The notes beneath the pieces are model-generated. The model was not told the DNA's origin. It saw only the letters and a list, made by a program, of their open reading frames with translations, and made no database searches. A DNA stretch of 64,000 nucleotides from an uncultured Bacteroidota bacterium (GTDB lineage: Bacteria > Bacteroidota > Bacteroidia > Flavobacteriales > Flavobacteriaceae): assembly GCA_902554655.1 (NCBI GenBank), contig CACDPE010000001.1:1-64000 (forward strand). Reading direction: 5' to 3'. A program made the position numbers and the translations under genes. Positions 53,761 to 63,134 of the stretch are shown one piece after another. How positions within the stretch are numbered: the first letter of the stretch is position 1; every line of letters begins with the position of its first letter.

Positions 53761-53773
53761 TTAAATATTCAAT

Positions 53774-53824
53774 AGAGGATCGATTTGACTGATTGCAACC
53801 TCATAAAAAAAGTGCTAAAGCAGA
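53774..53824 (+). ncRNA. SAM-II riboswitch
   Basis: A compact S-adenosylmethionine-binding pseudoknot upstream of metY. The element reads GAGG (P1 5' strand), then GATTTGACTG, ATTGCAA, CCTC (P1 3' strand), an A-rich linker and GTGCTAAAGCAG. The order stem - GATTT - TTGCAA - stem - TAAA-rich linker - GCTAAAGC follows the SAM-II pattern as I know it, and metY is a standard SAM-II target. The 5' side has about two extra bases between P1 and GATTTG. The ORF track reads this region as an N-terminal extension of metY, which I reject. About 60 bases separate it from the metY ATG, without an obvious T-run terminator. Confidence 0.82.
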
Positions 53825-53883
53825 AGCTTTTCACCCAGTTCAGTTTTGTCAAATCACCCTCTTATAAAATAAATTTTAATACT

Positions 53884-55179: not shown

Positions 55180-56139
55180 ATGGAACATAACCTATCTTAC
55201 ATTAATGTAAGAGATGTAAAAATTTTTTCAGGTAGGAAGGTTGATTTTCAACTTTCCTACCAAATTTTTGGTAAAGATTATAAATCATACCCAGTTGTTG
55301 TAATAAATCACTCTCTCACAGGTAATTCAAATGTAACAGGAAAAGATGGATGGTGGAATAATCTAGTTGGGGATAACAAATTAATTGATACTAAGAAATA
55401 TGCAGTATTGTCTTTTAATATTCCTGGTAATTGTTTTGGAAACGAATTAAATGATTTTATTGATGAATTAATCCTTGGTGATATTGCAAAAGTTTTTAAT
55501 AAAGCAATTCAACAATTAGGTATTTTTAAGGTACACACATTGATAGGAGGTTCGATAGGTGGTGGTTTAGTTTGGGAAATGGGTGTTTTGGAACCTGATC
55601 TTTTTGAGAACCTCGTTCCAATTGCAGCGGATTATAAATCTTCAGACTGGTTGATAGCAAATACTCATCTTCAATCAAAATTATTAGAAAATTCATCTGA
55701 TCCCATATTTGATGCAAGACTTCACGCAATGCTTACTTACAGAAATCCTATATCACTTAATAATAGATTTAAAAATCAATATGATGGTAAAGTTAGAAAG
55801 GTTAAAAATTGGTTGGATTTTCATGGAGAAACTCTAAAAAATAGATTTAATTTGGATGCATACAAAACCATGAATAGATTTCTTTCTTCAATAGATGTTG
55901 AGTCTTATTCTAATTCTAGTATTGATAAATTGATCAATAAGGTAAATAGTAATATATATATTCTATCTATTGACTCGGATTTACTTTTTACAGATAATGA
56001 ACAGAGAAATATTTATAAAAAAATAAGTTTAATTAAACAAAATATTTACTACTTTCAAATTAAATCAGATCACGGTCACGACGCTTTTTTCATTGAATAT
56101 GATCAAATTAATAATTTTTTAAAAGATTGCTTTTTGTAA
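55180..56139 (+). CDS. metX: MetX-like homoserine O-acetyltransferase
   Basis: Provides O-acetylhomoserine for MetY. An alpha/beta-hydrolase-fold protein of 319 residues with oxyanion segment NHSLTGNSN, nucleophile Ser in IGGSIGGGLVWEMG (near residue 127), Asp in SIDSDLLF and His in SDHGHDAFF. The starting base follows the metY stop directly. Somewhat shorter than classical MetX, but the motifs and linkage support the call. A serine acetyl- or succinyl-transferase role is not excluded. Confidence 0.88.
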   Translation: MEHNLSYINVRDVKIFSGRKVDFQLSYQIFGKDYKSYPVVVINHSLTGNSNVTGKDGWWNNLVGDNKLIDTKKYAVLSFNIPGNCFGNELNDFIDELILGDIAKVFNKAIQQLGIFKVHTLIGGSIGGGLVWEMGVLEPDLFENLVPIAADYKSSDWLIANTHLQSKLLENSSDPIFDARLHAMLTYRNPISLNNRFKNQYDGKVRKVKNWLDFHGETLKNRFNLDAYKTMNRFLSSIDVESYSNSSIDKLINKVNSNIYILSIDSDLLFTDNEQRNIYKKISLIKQNIYYFQIKSDHGHDAFFIEYDQINNFLKDCFL

Positions 56140-56143
56140 TTTA

Positions 56144-56175
56144 TTTTGAAAATTAAATTATCTGATGTATTTTTG
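56144..56175 (+). promoter_or_regulatory. Promoter of the aromatic amino-acid operon
   Basis: TTTTG at 56144-56148 (-33 type) and TATTTTTG at 56168-56175 (exact TAnnTTTG), separated by 19 bases. The transcript should start around 56179-56182, just before the leader ATG at 56183. Confidence 0.7.
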
Positions 56176-56182
56176 AAAAAAT

Positions 56183-56236
56183 ATGAACAAAACCTATAAC
56201 AAAAAATTCTATTTCTACTTTTACTATTCAAGTTAA
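56183..56236 (+). CDS. Phe/Tyr leader peptide of the pheA attenuator
   Basis: A 17-codon ORF absent from the ORF track, MNKTYNKKFYFYFYYSS then TAA. Codons 9-15 are seven uninterrupted aromatics (F Y F Y F Y Y), with another Tyr at codon 5. The next gene encodes prephenate dehydratase, and the operon makes Phe and Tyr. A ribosome starved for charged tRNA-Phe or tRNA-Tyr would stall in this run. Its ATG lies only about 8 bases after the -7 element, so the leader mRNA is nearly leaderless. Confidence 0.88.
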   Translation: MNKTYNKKFYFYFYYSS

Positions 56237-56303
56237 AGAAGGATTTTTTGTTATTATATAAATAAATAAATCAAAGAGTCCTGAATTTCAGGACTTTTTT
56301 TTT
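56196..56303 (+). promoter_or_regulatory. Transcription attenuator of the pheA operon
   Basis: Four mutually exclusive segments are visible. Segment 1 (56196-56210) pairs with segment 2 (56240-56254) over 15 bp with one G-U (protector). Segment 2 (AGGATTTTTTG, 56240-56250) also pairs with segment 3 (CAAAGAGTCCT, 56272-56282) over 11 bp with two G-U (antiterminator). Segment 3 (56277-56285) pairs with segment 4 (56287-56295) as the terminator stem. Segment 1 overlaps the start of the Phe/Tyr codon run, so stalling would mask it and favour 2:3; completing translation to the stop at 56234-56236 would mask segment 2 and favour 3:4. Confidence 0.87.
56277..56303 (+). terminator. Attenuator terminator before pheA
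   Basis: AGTCCTGAA-t-TTCAGGACT (realistically a 7-bp stem with a 5-base loop) followed by nine T. The last T is five bases before the pheA ATG at 56309. Confidence 0.93.
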
Positions 56304-56308
56304 GGATT

Positions 56309-57127
56309 ATGAAAATAGCAATTCAGGGAATATCAGGATCTTATCACGATCAAGTAGCTAAAATTTACTTTGGAAATGAATGTACAATATTAGACTGTAT
56401 GACGTTTGATGAAGTAGTTTTATCTGTTAAAGATGGGGTGTCCGATTTTGGGGTAATGGCTATTGAAAATTCAATTGCTGGTTCATTGATACCAAATTAT
56501 TCACTAATTGATGAAAATAATTTAAAAATTATTGGAGAGTCTTATATAAATATAAATCACCAATTGATGGTAGCACCTGGTGTCAAAATTGATGATATAA
56601 AAACTATTTCATCACATCCCATGGCTCTTCTCCAATGTAAAGATTTTTTAAAAAATTCAAATAAATTAATATTAGAAGATAAAGATACAGCTGAAGTTGC
56701 AAACAAGATTTCTAAAAATAATTTAACTGATATGGCTGCAATCGCAAGTAATAAAGCTGCAGAAATATATGGCTTGGATATAATTGAAAAGAATATTCAA
56801 ACAATCAAAAATAATGAGACTAGATTTGTGATTTTATCAGCTGAAGATTCATTGAATTCAAATATAGAAAAAAACAAGGCTTCATTAAAGTTAATTTTAA
56901 ATCATAGTAATGGAAGTTTAGCTAAGGTTTTAAATATTTTCCACAATTATAATATCAATCTAACAAAAATTCAATCTATTCCTGTAATCGAAACACCCTG
57001 GAAATACTCATTTTTTATTGATGTAACTTTTACAAATATCAATGATTATACTAATGCAATAAAAAATGTTAAACTAAATTCGGAGTTGCTTAAGGAATTT
57101 GGTTTATATAAAAGTGAAAAGTTATGA
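56309..57127 (+). CDS. pheA: Prephenate dehydratase
   Basis: Converts prephenate to phenylpyruvate for phenylalanine. 272 residues: a periplasmic-binding-like catalytic domain (FGVMAIENSIAGSLIPNY, SHPMALLQCKDFL, and the NNETRFVIL motif with the catalytic Thr) and a C-terminal ACT domain (about 190-265; NGSLAKVLNIFHNYNINLTKIQS) for feedback by Phe. No chorismate mutase domain is attached; that sits on the DAHP synthase. First structural gene after the attenuator; its stop overlaps the next start (ATGA). Confidence 0.95.
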   Translation: MKIAIQGISGSYHDQVAKIYFGNECTILDCMTFDEVVLSVKDGVSDFGVMAIENSIAGSLIPNYSLIDENNLKIIGESYININHQLMVAPGVKIDDIKTISSHPMALLQCKDFLKNSNKLILEDKDTAEVANKISKNNLTDMAAIASNKAAEIYGLDIIEKNIQTIKNNETRFVILSAEDSLNSNIEKNKASLKLILNHSNGSLAKVLNIFHNYNINLTKIQSIPVIETPWKYSFFIDVTFTNINDYTNAIKNVKLNSELLKEFGLYKSEKL

Positions 57128-58266
57128 TTAAAGTAGCTGAAAGATTAAATCATATTGAAGAATATTACTTTTCAAAAAAATTAAGGGAGGTAAAGAAACT
57201 TGAGAAGGATGGTAAACCAATAATCAATATGGGCATAGGAAGTCCTGATATTTTACCTCCAAAAAAAATATCTCAGTCTTTACAAAAATCATTAAATCAT
57301 GAAAATGCTCATAGATACCAGAGTTACAAGGGGATAGATTTACTTAGAGAATCAATTAAAAATTTTTATAAATCTAATTATAATGTTGAATTAAACTCTG
57401 ATAATAATATTCTTCCATTACTTGGATCAAAAGAAGGGATTATGCATATCTCACTAGCATTTTTAAATCCTGGTGATGAGGTATTAATCCCTGATCCTGG
57501 TTATCCAACTTATACATCAGTTACAAATATTGTTGGTGCAAAACCGATATATTTTGATTTAACTGAAGAAAATTCTTGGCTACCAGATATTGATAAATTA
57601 AATCAATTGAATTTATCTAAAGTTAAACTTATGTGGATTAATTATCCAAATATGCCAACTGGTTCTGACTTAGACACAGTCAAGTTTGAAGAACTTATTT
57701 CGTTTGCTAAACAAAATGAAATTTTATTGATTAATGATAATCCATATAGTTTTATACTAAATAAAAATCCAAAAAGTATATTATCAATTGAAAACTCAAT
57801 TGATTATTGCATGGAATTAAACTCACTTAGCAAGTCATTTAATATGTCAGGTTGGAGAGTTGGAATGCTCTTAGGTTCAAAAAGAAATATCGATTGTGTT
57901 TTAAAAATAAAATCCAATATGGATTCCGGTATGTTTTATGGAGTTCAAATGGGTGCTGTAAAAGCTTTAAAATTAGATAGTAGTTGGTTTAATAAAATCA
58001 ATGATATGTATTTAAAAAGAAAAAAAATTGTTTTAGAAATATGTGACATTTTAAACTTATCATATGATCCTAAATCAGTTGGAATGTTTGTTTGGGCAAA
58101 AATTAATTCAAATAAATCATCAAAAGAATTAACTGATTATTTATTGTATGAAAAAAATATTTTTGTTACACCAGGATTTATTTTTGGAAAAAATGGTGAA
58201 GGATATATTCGTTTTTCATTGTGTTTAGATGAGCAATTAATTACTAAAGCAAAAAGTAGATTATAA
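57124..58266 (+). CDS. Class I/II aminotransferase, likely aromatic
   Basis: PLP-dependent enzyme of 380 residues: INMGIGSPDILPP, SKEGIMHISLAFLNPGDEVLIPDPGYPTY (excerpt DEVLIPDPGYPTY), NYPNMPTGSDL and the Schiff-base Lys in NSLSKSFNMSGWRVGM. The DapL/AspC-like fold is broad, but the position between pheA and tyrA argues for the last transamination of phenylpyruvate and hydroxyphenylpyruvate. Overlaps both neighbours by 1-4 bp. Confidence 0.88.
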   Translation: MIKVAERLNHIEEYYFSKKLREVKKLEKDGKPIINMGIGSPDILPPKKISQSLQKSLNHENAHRYQSYKGIDLLRESIKNFYKSNYNVELNSDNNILPLLGSKEGIMHISLAFLNPGDEVLIPDPGYPTYTSVTNIVGAKPIYFDLTEENSWLPDIDKLNQLNLSKVKLMWINYPNMPTGSDLDTVKFEELISFAKQNEILLINDNPYSFILNKNPKSILSIENSIDYCMELNSLSKSFNMSGWRVGMLLGSKRNIDCVLKIKSNMDSGMFYGVQMGAVKALKLDSSWFNKINDMYLKRKKIVLEICDILNLSYDPKSVGMFVWAKINSNKSSKELTDYLLYEKNIFVTPGFIFGKNGEGYIRFSLCLDEQLITKAKSRL

Positions 58267-59132
58267 TGAAAATTGGAATAATTGGACTAGGTTTAATGGG
58301 TGGGTCATTTTCTTATGATATTAGAGATTTATATCCTGATGCTGTAATTTCAGGATTTGATATTTCAAAGCAAAATACTACTACTGCTATTGAATTAGGA
58401 ATAATTAGTTCATTACTTGATATTAGAAAAATATCTGATTTTAACATCATTATCGTTTCAGTCCCTGTTGACAAATCGATTGATGTTTTAAAAAGAGTTT
58501 TAAATAATGTTTCAAAAGAAACCCTCGTTATCGATGTAGGTTCAACTAAGCAAAAAATATGTAGTGAGTTAAAAAATCATATTAATAGAAAAAATTTTTT
58601 GGCAATGCACCCAATTTCAGGAACTGAGAATAGTGGACCATATTCTGCCAAGAAAAATTTATATTTTAATATTACTAATATTATTTGTGAGCCTGAATTA
58701 ACAAGTCCTAATCTATTAGATTTTGCTAATTCCCTGTTTAAAAAGTTTAATATGAAAATTATTAATATGGATCCAGCATCTCACGATCAACATATTTCAT
58801 ATGTTTCTCATCTTTCACATATTACTTCATTTATCTTAGCTAAAACAGTGATTCTGAAGGAAAAGAATGAAAAAAATATTTTTGATCTAGCTGGAAGTGG
58901 ATTTGAATCAACTGTTAGATTAGCAAAAAGTTCATCTGAAATGTGGACACCAATCTTTCTTCAGAACAAAGAAAATATTTTAGAGGCTTTAAATGGATAT
59001 ATTAATAATCTTGAGGAGTTAAAACAATTAATAATTAATAATGATAAAAAATCTATAATTAAAGATTTAAACAATATAAATAGAGTTAAAAAAATTCTTT
59101 TAGGGATAAACAATAAAAACTATGAAAAATAA
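58266..59132 (+). CDS. tyrA: Prephenate dehydrogenase
   Basis: Oxidises prephenate to 4-hydroxyphenylpyruvate for tyrosine. 288 residues, NAD(P) motif GIIGLGLMGGSFS at the N-terminus, VIDVGSTKQKIC, AMHPISGTENSGP (His of the active site) and the helical C-terminal half with SYVSHLSHITSFIL. No ACT domain, so feedback by Tyr is not evident. Overlaps the next gene by 11 bp. Confidence 0.93.
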   Translation: MKIGIIGLGLMGGSFSYDIRDLYPDAVISGFDISKQNTTTAIELGIISSLLDIRKISDFNIIIVSVPVDKSIDVLKRVLNNVSKETLVIDVGSTKQKICSELKNHINRKNFLAMHPISGTENSGPYSAKKNLYFNITNIICEPELTSPNLLDFANSLFKKFNMKIINMDPASHDQHISYVSHLSHITSFILAKTVILKEKNEKNIFDLAGSGFESTVRLAKSSSEMWTPIFLQNKENILEALNGYINNLEELKQLIINNDKKSIIKDLNNINRVKKILLGINNKNYEK

Positions 59133-60204
59133 CAAAAAACTTAGAAAATGGCTTGATGATTTTAAATTAGATCATCCACTGGTAATTGCTGGGCCATGTA
59201 GTGCTGAAACTGAAGCTCAAATGATGAGTATTGCTAATGAACTTAAAGGCTCTGATGTTTCTATTTTCAGAGCTGGTATATGGAAACCTAGAACAAGGCC
59301 AGGTATGTTTGAAGGCGTTGGTTCAATTGGACTTAAGTGGTTACAAAAGGTAAAAAAAGAAACAGGATTACTTACTGCGACTGAAGTTGCAAATGCAAAT
59401 CATGTAAAGCTTGCTATTGAACATGATGTAGACGTTTTATGGATTGGAGCTAGATCTACAGTTAGCCCATTTATTGTTCAAGAAATTGCTGATACCCTTA
59501 AAGGAACAGATAAAATAGTACTGATAAAAAATCCTGTTAACCCTGATTTAGCATTATGGTATGGCGGAATTGAAAGATTATATTCATCTGACATTAAAAA
59601 ACTTGGTGTTATTCACAGAGGATTTTCTACATACTCAAAATCAAAATTTAGAAATAATCCTGAATGGCAAATCCCTATAGAACTTCAAAATAAATTTCCT
59701 GACTTGCCATTAATTTGTGATCCTTCACATATATGTGGAAGAAGAGATCTATTACATGATGTTTCCCAAATTTCTCTAGATTTAAACTTTGATGGATTAA
59801 TGATTGAATCTCATATTGATCCAGATAATGCATGGAGTGATGCTGCTCAACAAATCACACCAAAGGTTTTAATACAGCTAATGAAAGAGCTAAAGATTAG
59901 AAAAGGAGCTTTCAATGAAGAGAGTTATGTAAATAAACTTGCGAAGTATAGAACAAAAATTGACATAGCTGATAATGATATTTTAGAAATTTTGTCCAAG
60001 AGAATGATTATATCAGATAAAATTGGTAAGCTAAAGAAAAAACAAAATGTTGCTGTTTTACAATCAAAAAGATGGAATGAAATTTTAGGTAAGATGATTT
60101 TAGTAGGGAAAGAAAAAGGATTGAGTGAGGATTTTGTTTTGAAAATTTTTAAAGCAATTCATCAAGAATCAATAAATCATCAAAATAAAATATTAAATAG
60201 TTAA
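59122..60204 (+). CDS. DAHP synthase - chorismate mutase bifunctional enzyme
   Basis: 360 residues in two domains. Residues about 15-260: type I-beta (KDO8P-like) DAHP synthase, with AGPCSAETEAQMM, RAGIWKPRTRPGMFEGVG, LWIGARST, LIKNPVNPD and LICDPSHICGRRD. Residues about 270-355: AroQ-type chorismate mutase (LAKYRTKIDIADNDILEILSKRM, ISDKIGKLKKKQNVAVLQSKRW). It thus controls entry to the shikimate pathway and the branch to prephenate in a single protein; the mutase domain may act as the allosteric sensor, as known for the family. Confidence 0.94.
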   Translation: MKNNKKLRKWLDDFKLDHPLVIAGPCSAETEAQMMSIANELKGSDVSIFRAGIWKPRTRPGMFEGVGSIGLKWLQKVKKETGLLTATEVANANHVKLAIEHDVDVLWIGARSTVSPFIVQEIADTLKGTDKIVLIKNPVNPDLALWYGGIERLYSSDIKKLGVIHRGFSTYSKSKFRNNPEWQIPIELQNKFPDLPLICDPSHICGRRDLLHDVSQISLDLNFDGLMIESHIDPDNAWSDAAQQITPKVLIQLMKELKIRKGAFNEESYVNKLAKYRTKIDIADNDILEILSKRMIISDKIGKLKKKQNVAVLQSKRWNEILGKMILVGKEKGLSEDFVLKIFKAIHQESINHQNKILNS

Positions 60205-61121
60205 TGACAGGATTAGTTTACAAATCAACAGGCAGTTTCTATAAAATAAAATTAGAAAATGGATCTTTTGTTGATTGTAAACTTTCAGGAAAATTTAGAA
60301 TTCAGGACATAAATTCTACTAATCCAATTTGTGTGGGTGATCAAGTACTTGTTGATTTAAATGAATCTTCAGGAAATGTAATAAAGGAATTGTTTGAAAG
60401 AAAGAATTATGTTGTTAGAAAGTCAGTCAAATTATCAAAACAATTTCACATTATAGCCTCAAATATTAATCTTTGTTTTTTAATTGTTACGCCAAAAAAT
60501 CCTGAAACATCAACTATGTTTATTGATAGATTTTTAGCATCAACTGTTTCATATGGAATTGATACTTTAATTTTATTTAATAAGATTGATAATTATGATC
60601 TAAAGTCTAAAGAAATTGTAAAAAATCTTGAAGAAATATATACATCTGCTGGTTATAAAACAATTTCAGTTTCAGGAAAGAAAAAAATTAATATTGATAT
60701 ACTAAAAAGTATTATGATAGGTAATACATGTGTTTTCTCAGGACATAGTGGAGTTGGAAAATCAACATTGATAAATTCTCTTGATTCTGATCTAAATATT
60801 AAAACATCACCAATTTCTGATTCTAATTTAACTGGTCAACATACTACTACTTTTTCCCAAATGTATGATTTAGAATTTGGTTCTAAAATTATTGATACTC
60901 CAGGTATAAAAGGTTTCGGGTTATATAATGTCAATAAACATGAGTTAAAAGATTATTTTAAAGAGTTTTTAAATATCAATTCTTGTAAATTTAATAACTG
61001 TACACATAATCATGAACCTGACTGTGAGATTAAAAAAAGTGTCGATAATGGATTAATTTCAAGATCTAGGTATAATAATTACATTTCAATGTTATTAGAA
61101 ATTGAAAATAGTTTTAGGTAA
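60204..61121 (+). CDS. rsgA: Ribosome small-subunit-dependent GTPase RsgA
   Basis: Circularly permuted GTPase helping 30S maturation. 305 residues: N-terminal OB fold (LVYKSTGSFYKIKLENG), G4-like LFNKID, P-loop GHSGVGKSTLINSL, IIDTPGIKGFGLY and a C-terminal zinc knuckle CKFNNCTHNHEPDC. It starts at the last base of the preceding stop. Its inclusion in the aromatic operon is positional, not functional, as far as can be seen. Confidence 0.95.
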   Translation: MTGLVYKSTGSFYKIKLENGSFVDCKLSGKFRIQDINSTNPICVGDQVLVDLNESSGNVIKELFERKNYVVRKSVKLSKQFHIIASNINLCFLIVTPKNPETSTMFIDRFLASTVSYGIDTLILFNKIDNYDLKSKEIVKNLEEIYTSAGYKTISVSGKKKINIDILKSIMIGNTCVFSGHSGVGKSTLINSLDSDLNIKTSPISDSNLTGQHTTTFSQMYDLEFGSKIIDTPGIKGFGLYNVNKHELKDYFKEFLNINSCKFNNCTHNHEPDCEIKKSVDNGLISRSRYNNYISMLLEIENSFR

Positions 61122-61574
61122 ATGAAAGCTGTAATTCAAAGGGTTAATTATTCAAAACTTAAAATCCATGGTAAGGTTTATAGTGAAATTTCCAAAGGAT
61201 TAATGGTTCTTTTAGGGATTACTCATGAAGATTCAATTGATGACATTAAATGGTTATCAAATAAAATTGTAAATCTCAGAATTTTTAATGATGATAATGG
61301 AATAATGAATAAATCTGTAAAAGAAATTGATGGAGATTTACAAGTTATAAGCCAATTTACTCTACACGCACTAACAAAAAAAGGAAACAGACCTTCCTAT
61401 ATTCATGCAGCAAAAGGTAAGTTTGCTGAAAGTAACTACAATTTATTTGTAGATGAAATCAGCATGATTTTTAATAAAAAAATAAAAACTGGTAAATTTG
61501 GTGCTGATATGCAGATAGATTTTGAAAATGATGGCCCCGTCACTATAATTATTGACTCTAAAAATAAAGTCTAA
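61122..61574 (+). CDS. dtd: D-aminoacyl-tRNA deacylase
   Basis: Removes D-amino acids (classically D-Tyr) wrongly attached to tRNA. 150 residues with family motifs MKAVIQRVNYSKLKI, SQFTLHALTKKGNRPSYIHAA (SQFTL and NRPSY, in two parts) and the GADMQIDFENDGPVTIIID end. Placing a D-Tyr-tRNA proofreader in the Tyr operon is suggestive. Two-bp gap to the next ATG. Confidence 0.95.
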   Translation: MKAVIQRVNYSKLKIHGKVYSEISKGLMVLLGITHEDSIDDIKWLSNKIVNLRIFNDDNGIMNKSVKEIDGDLQVISQFTLHALTKKGNRPSYIHAAKGKFAESNYNLFVDEISMIFNKKIKTGKFGADMQIDFENDGPVTIIIDSKNKV

Positions 61575-61575
61575 T

Positions 61576-61902
61576 ATGAAATTAAATATCTTACAAAAAA
61601 AAGTTGATGATTGGATTAAAAAGTATGGCGTAAGGTATTTTAATGAACTTACTAATATGGCTCAACTCACCGAAGAGGTTGGAGAAGTAGCTAGAATTAT
61701 TTCCAGAGTATATGGTGAGCAATCCCCAAAAAAGAATGAAAAAATTAATGATTTAGGTGAAGAACTGGCTGATGTTTTATTTGTTTTAATATGTTTAGCT
61801 AATCAAACAGGTGTTGATTTGGAAAAGGCTTTTGAAGAAAAATTAAATAAGAAAACAAAAAGAGATAAAGAAAGACATTTCTCAAATGAAAAATTAAAAT
61901 GA
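61576..61902 (+). CDS. MazG-like nucleotide pyrophosphohydrolase
   Basis: A 108-residue single-domain all-alpha NTP pyrophosphatase. Metal-binding pattern: LTEEVGEVARIIS (EExxE) and LGEELADVLFVLICLA (ExxD). Small MazG-like proteins clean up aberrant nucleotides. The supplied ORF start at 61552 lies inside dtd; ATG 61576 immediately follows the dtd stop. Overlaps aroA by 4 bp. Confidence 0.9.
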   Translation: MKLNILQKKVDDWIKKYGVRYFNELTNMAQLTEEVGEVARIISRVYGEQSPKKNEKINDLGEELADVLFVLICLANQTGVDLEKAFEEKLNKKTKRDKERHFSNEKLK

Positions 61903-63134
61903 AAAAAGTTCAGATAATACCATCTGATTTATCTTCTGATTCAAGTGTTAAAATATCTGGTTCAAAAAGTGAGTCAAACAGAGTTTTAATCTTAAATTCA
62001 ATTTTCAAAAACATTAAAATAAGCAATCTTTCAGATTCTGATGATTCGGTTGTTCTTAAAAATGCTCTTGAAAATCCTAATAAAAAAATTGATATACATC
62101 ATGCTGGTACTGCAATGAGATTTTTAACTGCTTATCTCTCAACAATAGAGGAAGGTAAGTTTACGTTAACTGGATCTGAAAGAATGAAAGAAAGACCTAT
62201 TGGTATTTTAGTTGATGCATTAAAAAATTTAGGATTTAATATTAATTATCTCAAAAAAAAGGGTTACCCACCTTTAGAAATTAATGGAACTAAAAATAAA
62301 AAGTCAATCATAAAACTTAAATCTGATATTAGTAGTCAATTTATCAGTGCTTTAATCTTAATTGGGCCAACTTTTAAAAATGGTTTAACCATTGAACTTG
62401 AAGGTGAAATTATATCTAAACCTTATATAAATTTGACATTGCATGTTTTGAAGAGATTAGGAATTGGTTACTCATACATAAAAAATATAATTAAAATTGA
62501 TTATGCTAAAGAGATTAGCCCAAACGAATATTTAATCGAATCTGATTGGAGTTCTTCATCTTATTTTTATGCAGTTGTTGCTATTAACAAAAAAATAAAT
62601 ATTAAGCTGAATAATTTTTTTAAAGAATCTTACCAAGGCGACAGTTATGTAGAAAAAATTTTTTTGAAACTAGGTGTTAAAACTAAATTTTTAAATCAAA
62701 ATGAAATACTATTATCTCCGATTTATGGTTATAAAAGGCCTAGTAGTTTGTTGTTTAATTTAATAGACAACCCTGACTTAGCCCAAACTGTTGCAGTAAC
62801 TTGTTTGGCTTTAAAAATCCAAGTTAAAATAACTGGTCTTCAAACACTAAAAATTAAAGAAACTGATAGAATTCTAGCATTACATAACGAGCTGTCAAAG
62901 TTTGGTGCAAAAATTATTTTTGATGATGCTAGTATTGAAATTTTTCCGCCGGTTGAATTTAATAAAAATATTGAAATATTTACCTACGATGACCATAGAA
63001 TGGCTTTGTCATTTGCACCACTTGGTTTGATTACTCCAATAATAATTAATGACCCAGATGTTGTAACAAAATCATTTCCAAATTATTGGAATGATTTATT
63101 ACAATTAAATTTTAATCTAAAATTTAAAAATTAA
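61899..63134 (+). CDS. aroA: EPSP synthase (3-phosphoshikimate 1-carboxyvinyltransferase)
   Basis: Sixth shikimate-pathway step, the target of glyphosate. 411 residues: ISGSKSESNRVLIL at the N-terminus, HHAGTAMRFLTAYL (NAGTAMR equivalent; Asn is His here), GSERMKERPIGILVDAL, LKSDISSQFISALILIG, the catalytic segment IKETDRILAL and TYDDHRMALSFAP. Divergent in parts, so the glyphosate class is not assigned. Last gene of the operon before a 62-bp gap. Confidence 0.93.
   Translation: MKKVQIIPSDLSSDSSVKISGSKSESNRVLILNSIFKNIKISNLSDSDDSVVLKNALENPNKKIDIHHAGTAMRFLTAYLSTIEEGKFTLTGSERMKERPIGILVDALKNLGFNINYLKKKGYPPLEINGTKNKKSIIKLKSDISSQFISALILIGPTFKNGLTIELEGEIISKPYINLTLHVLKRLGIGYSYIKNIIKIDYAKEISPNEYLIESDWSSSSYFYAVVAINKKINIKLNNFFKESYQGDSYVEKIFLKLGVKTKFLNQNEILLSPIYGYKRPSSLLFNLIDNPDLAQTVAVTCLALKIQVKITGLQTLKIKETDRILALHNELSKFGAKIIFDDASIEIFPPVEFNKNIEIFTYDDHRMALSFAPLGLITPIIINDPDVVTKSFPNYWNDLLQLNFNLKFKN

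Follow-up and report, generated by a model that had tools for sequence, protein, structure and literature searches.

A probable leader-peptide attenuator with mixed phenylalanine and tyrosine codons in front of the pheA operon of Flavobacteriaceae and other Bacteroidia

The window (the whole stretch of DNA that was analysed, 64 kb long) belongs to a 1.1-Mb, incomplete genome assembly whose nearest relatives are marine uncultured Bacteroidetes and whose PheA is 99% identical to that of isolate AG-894-L20. Four genes of phenylalanine and tyrosine synthesis follow one another on its + strand, as do all features described below unless noted. These are pheA for prephenate dehydratase, the first gene of the proposed regulated operon (56309-57127; Pfam PF00800); a class I/II aminotransferase gene (57124-58266; PF00155); tyrA for prephenate dehydrogenase (58266-59132; PF02153 and PF20463, with NF006307 above cut-off); and a DAHP synthase-chorismate mutase fusion (59122-60204; PF00793 and PF01817). 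The Pfam matches bear out the function originally read from the sequence for the genes downstream of the leader. The aromatic operon appears to extend through 60204-63134 (+) with rsgA, a D-Tyr-tRNA deacylase, a MazG-like protein and aroA, and the presence of a D-Tyr-tRNA deacylase adjoining Tyr synthesis genes is suggestive.

Upstream of the pheA leader lie metY and metX, with metX ending at 56139, and these genes are themselves preceded by a SAM-II riboswitch (53769-53828; Rfam RF01726, 73.1 bits). One relative also carries a SAM-II upstream. The start of metY is probably the ATG near 53875, rather than the TTG at 53785 inside the riboswitch. A riboswitch-controlled met operon and a proposed attenuator-controlled aromatic operon are therefore arranged head to tail, and the 3′ end of metX abuts the leader.

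The leader peptide ORF read from the sequence (56183-56236) has 17 codons and encodes MNKTYNKKFYFYFYYSS, and a homologous F/Y-rich ORF occurs in relatives. Its putative regulatory codons, TTC TAT TTC TAC TTT TAC TAT, form the uninterrupted run F Y F Y F Y Y at 56207-56227. Segment 1, the protector arm ATAACAAAAAATTCT (56196-56210), can form 15 uninterrupted pairs with segment 2, AGGATTTTTTGTTAT (56240-56254), at -13.0 kcal/mol. Segment 2 has another potential partner in segment 3 (56272-56284), which doubles as the 5′ arm of the terminator; here AGGATTTTTTG (56240-56250) and CAAAGAGTCCT (56272-56282) would form 11 pairs at -11.7 kcal/mol. Segment 4 (56288-56299) supplies the 3′ arm of a predicted intrinsic terminator that separates the leader from the first gene, a hairpin at 56273-56299 with 12 pairs, a 3-nt loop and an energy of -13.9 kcal/mol. 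This hairpin overlaps the 2:3 pairing and runs into a tract of nine T (56295-56303), which overlaps the end of the stem and itself ends five bases 5′ of the pheA ATG at 56309. On direct reading, the coordinates given in the initial annotation for the ORF, the Phe/Tyr run, the 1:2 and 2:3 pairings and the nine T were essentially all correct. Its terminator stood as to the stem, the T tract and the distance to pheA, but the stem starts at 56273 and not at 56277. The region 56120-56320 folds much more stably than its shuffled versions (z = -3.7; 0/200 as stable).

The seven-codon F/Y run is the sole one in the 64-kb window, where 0.11 would be expected, and the region holds two terminator-like sites, both strands of the same hairpin, versus 0.2 expected. 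The run alone is no proof of a leader, because the genome is AT-rich and the F/Y run pattern matched it 20 times overall, compared with 12 times for a reversed control pattern; a genome-wide search with this codon pattern was accordingly rejected as too unspecific a leader finder. Among the ten matches that were fetched, only the pheA leader combined an ATG-started ORF with a terminator. Another candidate, a minus-strand terminator with a Leu/Ile/Val-rich mini-ORF (17324-17295), was dismissed because it is an ordinary terminator that follows a convergent gene.

A sigma-A promoter may be placed at 56146-56175, with TTG at 56146-56148, a 19-nt spacer and TATTTTTG (56168-56175) matching TAnnTTTG, and this motif would put the transcription start at about 56180. 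Boxes resembling TTTTG-N19-TAnnTTTG are found at one fixed position in 9/9 members of the window's clade. Judged from this motif, the 5′ UTR of the leader would measure 0-3 nt in that clade, placing the box at -12 to -5, and would have a median of 14 nt across all 128 loci compared. The same -12 to -5 position is reported for the promoter box of Flavobacterium psychrophilum, where leaderless mRNAs make up just 5.5% of all mRNAs (PMC9723704). The sequence suggests, then, that the leader ORF is almost leaderless in the window's clade, and this raises the testable question of how a leader with a 5′ UTR of 0-3 nt would initiate efficiently enough for coupling.

Evidence for a function comes from the manner in which the segments have changed together. 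At 128 loci, the sequence from the start of the ORF as far as the run, the sequence that follows the run and both arms of the terminator were excised, and duplex energies were compared between partners of the same species and swapped partners. For 1:2, own partners gave -14.1 versus -9.5 kcal/mol when swapped, and exceeded the swap mean in stability at 120/128 loci; for 2:3, the values were -12.0 and -8.9 kcal/mol, again with 120/128 better than the swap mean. The 3:4 pairing reached -14.9 versus -10.5 kcal/mol and 128/128 loci, a comparison that is partly circular because the terminator arms were located by pairing; that circularity does not touch 1:2 or the segment-2 side of 2:3. As related species are not independent, such counts are no probabilities, and the better guide is given by the flat controls: the unpredicted pairings 1:3 and 2:4 showed no difference between own and swapped partners across the 128 loci. 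Segment 2 is common to 1:2 and 2:3 in 127/128 loci, and its distance from the end of the run hardly varies (8-15 nt from the 5th to the 95th percentile). Moreover, segments 2, 3 and 4 have core pentamers that shift jointly across lineages (CGGGA/TCCCG/CGGGA, CAGGA/TCCTG/CAGGA, GAGAC/GTCTC/GAGAC, GGGAT/ATCCC/GGGAT). The mutually exclusive 1:2, 2:3 and 3:4 pairings are kept, in that order, through covariation. The family-wide swap test replaced a count of pairs on an alignment of close relatives, which told little with segment 2/3/4 cores that were almost invariant. The anatomy of the element, its conservation and the co-evolution of exactly these three pairings are direct observations.

Conservation was followed through PheA relatives from 201 genomes of the family, almost every one from a separate genus, from named genomes and at the order, class and phylum levels, by scanning the regions upstream of pheA for short F/Y-rich ORFs scored by the F/Y count in 8 codons. 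In 67 Flavobacteriaceae genera, selected by highest PheA score and supplemented by hand rather than drawn at random, a leader scoring at least 5 precedes pheA in 65, against 5% of dinucleotide shuffles, and one scoring at least 6 in 57 (0.6% of shuffles). Salegentibacter, Zunongwangia, Mesonia, Christiangramia, Gillisia and Aquimarina are among those with the leader, and a terminator follows it in nearly all. The two remaining genera have no F/Y leader within 400 nt of pheA, possibly through loss of the leader or an altered operon order. Most of the sampled Bacteroidia loci with pheA also carry a leader, for example MNSFAYTFSFFFYFYFSHKVEREFVCI and MRKTNYFFFYFYNRSHRGI. Three 0.6-Mb genomes of the same order, probably those of insect endosymbionts, have kept pheA with no leader upstream of it. 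At 18 loci that represent other classes of the phylum, no leader was found upstream of pheA, and a search of the plasmid collection gave no match. Three further loci from other classes, with closer, Bacteroidia-like PheA, do have an F/Y leader and terminator before pheA, and horizontal transfer of operon and attenuator together is a possible explanation. Because the element is present in most Bacteroidia loci and missing from most loci of other classes, its origin probably lies in the ancestor of Bacteroidia or in that of this kind of operon. Clearly, the absence of conserved F/Y leaders or of compensatory changes among relatives, named at the outset as the outcome that would count against an attenuator, is not what these genera and the 128-locus swap test reveal.

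Considering these features together, a ribosome-mediated transcription attenuator very probably governs the pheA-aminotransferase-tyrA-DAHP synthase/chorismate mutase operon, and we put the probability of this reading at about 0.92. It is the classical interpretation already proposed for the locus, and the conserved leader, the co-evolving 1:2, 2:3 and 3:4 pairings and the codon placement all support it. With ample Phe and Tyr, a ribosome would complete the predicted translatable ORF, whose codons call for the operon's own products, and rest at the stop (56234-56236), where it would mask the beginning of segment 2; segment 3 would then pair with segment 4, and RNA polymerase would stop in the T run before pheA. 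If charged tRNA-Phe or tRNA-Tyr were scarce, the ribosome would stall on 56207-56227 and sit on segment 1, leaving segment 2 free to pair with segment 3 once the latter had been made, so that the terminator would be pre-empted and the operon transcribed. An untranslated leader would form 1:2 and terminate by default.

Folding with masked RNA is consistent with this scheme, given ribosome footprint sizes taken from general knowledge; with these assumed sizes, the placement of the codons would let a stalled ribosome hide segment 1 and free segment 2. With the mask to 56239 (a ribosome stalled on the last Tyr codon) and nascent RNA to 56287, the antiterminator 2:3 forms at -11.1 kcal/mol before segment 4 exists. 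Masking to 56248 (a ribosome at the stop) leaves no structure to compete with the terminator, and unmasked RNA, with no ribosome, forms both the protector 1:2 and the terminator. In the full RNA at equilibrium, the terminator beats the antiterminator even with segment 1 hidden (terminator fold -18.4 kcal/mol). Since the terminator wins on finished RNA in all cases, control has to be kinetic, as it is in classical attenuators. We infer this kinetic order, along with the promoter, the footprints, termination itself and the response to Phe and Tyr.

The ORF stop lies 3′ of segment 2 in 106/128 loci, and a freely moving ribosome would therefore sweep across segment 2; in ten loci, the window included, the stop lies 5′ of it. 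Phe and Tyr are mixed in 128/128 runs, and the mixing that had been singled out as new in the window is accordingly the rule. A Trp codon occurs in the leaders of 38/65 genera. All 39 Trp codons lie in or near the F/Y run (5.1% of 772 residues there, against 0 among 686 other leader residues), at positions varying from 3 or 1 codons before the run to inside or after it, and Trp presence on the PheA tree needs about 12 changes. No Trp codon was found in the leaders of the window's marine clade. Leaders bearing Trp may sense all three aromatic amino acids, though a Trp codon inside segment 1 may be kept by pairing instead of sensing, and it is testable whether any single one of the three would elicit a response from mixed F/Y/W leaders.

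It is conceivable that the hairpin is a mere intrinsic terminator of the SAM-II-controlled metY-metX operon and that the short ORF occurs by chance. The end of metX lies just ~130 nt 5′ of the hairpin with no other terminator between, and the hairpin would also stop met read-through. This explanation is nevertheless very improbable. The swap test largely refutes it, the leader ORF, 1:2 and 2:3 being both conserved and co-evolving throughout the family, and pheA is preceded by leader and terminator together across Bacteroidia.

Another means of control would be a TnaC-like arrest in which free Phe or Tyr is detected by the nascent peptide inside the ribosome and charged tRNA is not the limiting factor. 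Arrest peptides usually require fixed residues. The lineage-specific N-terminal motifs (FWNGFYFYF, NWFYFFF) and the fixed distance to segment 2 would suit such a mechanism, but residues outside the run vary widely between lineages and F and Y interchange freely within it, which makes arrest just as hard to credit as a met terminator. A ligand-binding riboswitch or a tRNA-binding, T-box-like leader with an accidental ORF would likewise explain why the 5′ region is structured and contains a terminator and an antiterminator, yet no Rfam family reaches its cut-off at the element here or in 20 relatives, and conservation is confined to the F/Y codons and the short complementary arms, no further core being conserved; this is the least probable explanation of all. 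Attenuation by a translated leader remains the preferred reading.

As in the E. coli pheL-pheA attenuator (RF01859, Phe_leader), the element has aromatic codons in a short ORF, exclusive 1:2, 2:3 and 3:4 pairings and a terminator before pheA. It is unlike pheL in mixing Phe with Tyr and in its very short inferred 5′ UTR, and relatives differ also in that segment 2 usually lies inside the ORF. The RF01859 model scored 20.8 bits at the element, below its cut-off of 55. A comparative survey of attenuation by Lopatovskaya et al. in 2010 reportedly may cover Bacteroidetes. The top Rfam model by bits was Bacteroid-trp (RF01692; Weinberg et al. 2010, PMC2864571), a Bacteroidetes leader RNA described in Rfam as a tryptophan peptide leader, which matched end to end with 27.4 bits (E 0.29; cut-off 49). 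It had no match in a search of the window's incomplete genome and no gathering-level match at the element in 20 relatives, and it differs from the pheA leader in its Trp codons and trp genes; its score fits the same mechanism, not family membership. In trpL of Sinorhizobium meliloti, the AUG of the leader-peptide ORF is at the RNA 5′ end (PMC7298713), much like the almost leaderless pheA leader, although that leader concerns Trp, belongs to another phylum and has a measured 5′ end where ours comes from a motif.

The closest precedent is the work of Guerin et al. 2021 (ISME Commun 1:33, PMC9723704) on F. psychrophilum, a fish pathogen of the same family as the window organism. In this species and other Flavobacteriaceae, it described a structured 5′ element that is conserved ahead of pheA, together with strong indications of attenuation by leader peptides upstream of amino-acid operons, naming the pheA and hisG elements as conserved. 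The mechanism is therefore known in kind and was already outlined, and the initial claim of novelty for a textbook attenuator in such a bacterium falls. The two pheA elements share gene and family, neither has an Rfam match, and the structured region directly before pheA in the window is likened to theirs by description, not sequence. Beyond this paper, no detailed pheA leader in Bacteroides was found in the literature searched.

We lean slightly towards a class-wide aromatic attenuator of Bacteroidia that works without Shine-Dalgarno sites, is nearly leaderless in the marine clade and has added Trp codons in many other lineages, with one leader reading all three aromatics for a DAHP synthase operon. 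Leader-peptide attenuation of aromatic synthesis would then be an old, stable trait in Bacteroidia, a group mostly lacking Shine-Dalgarno sites where the mechanism is little studied, and the 128 loci with defined segments suffice for an Rfam family. The main text of Guerin et al. gives no leader sequence, pairings or reach beyond the family, details that its supplements may hold; to that text, the present analysis adds evidence at the level of segments, the spread through the class, the nearly leaderless form and the Trp codons.
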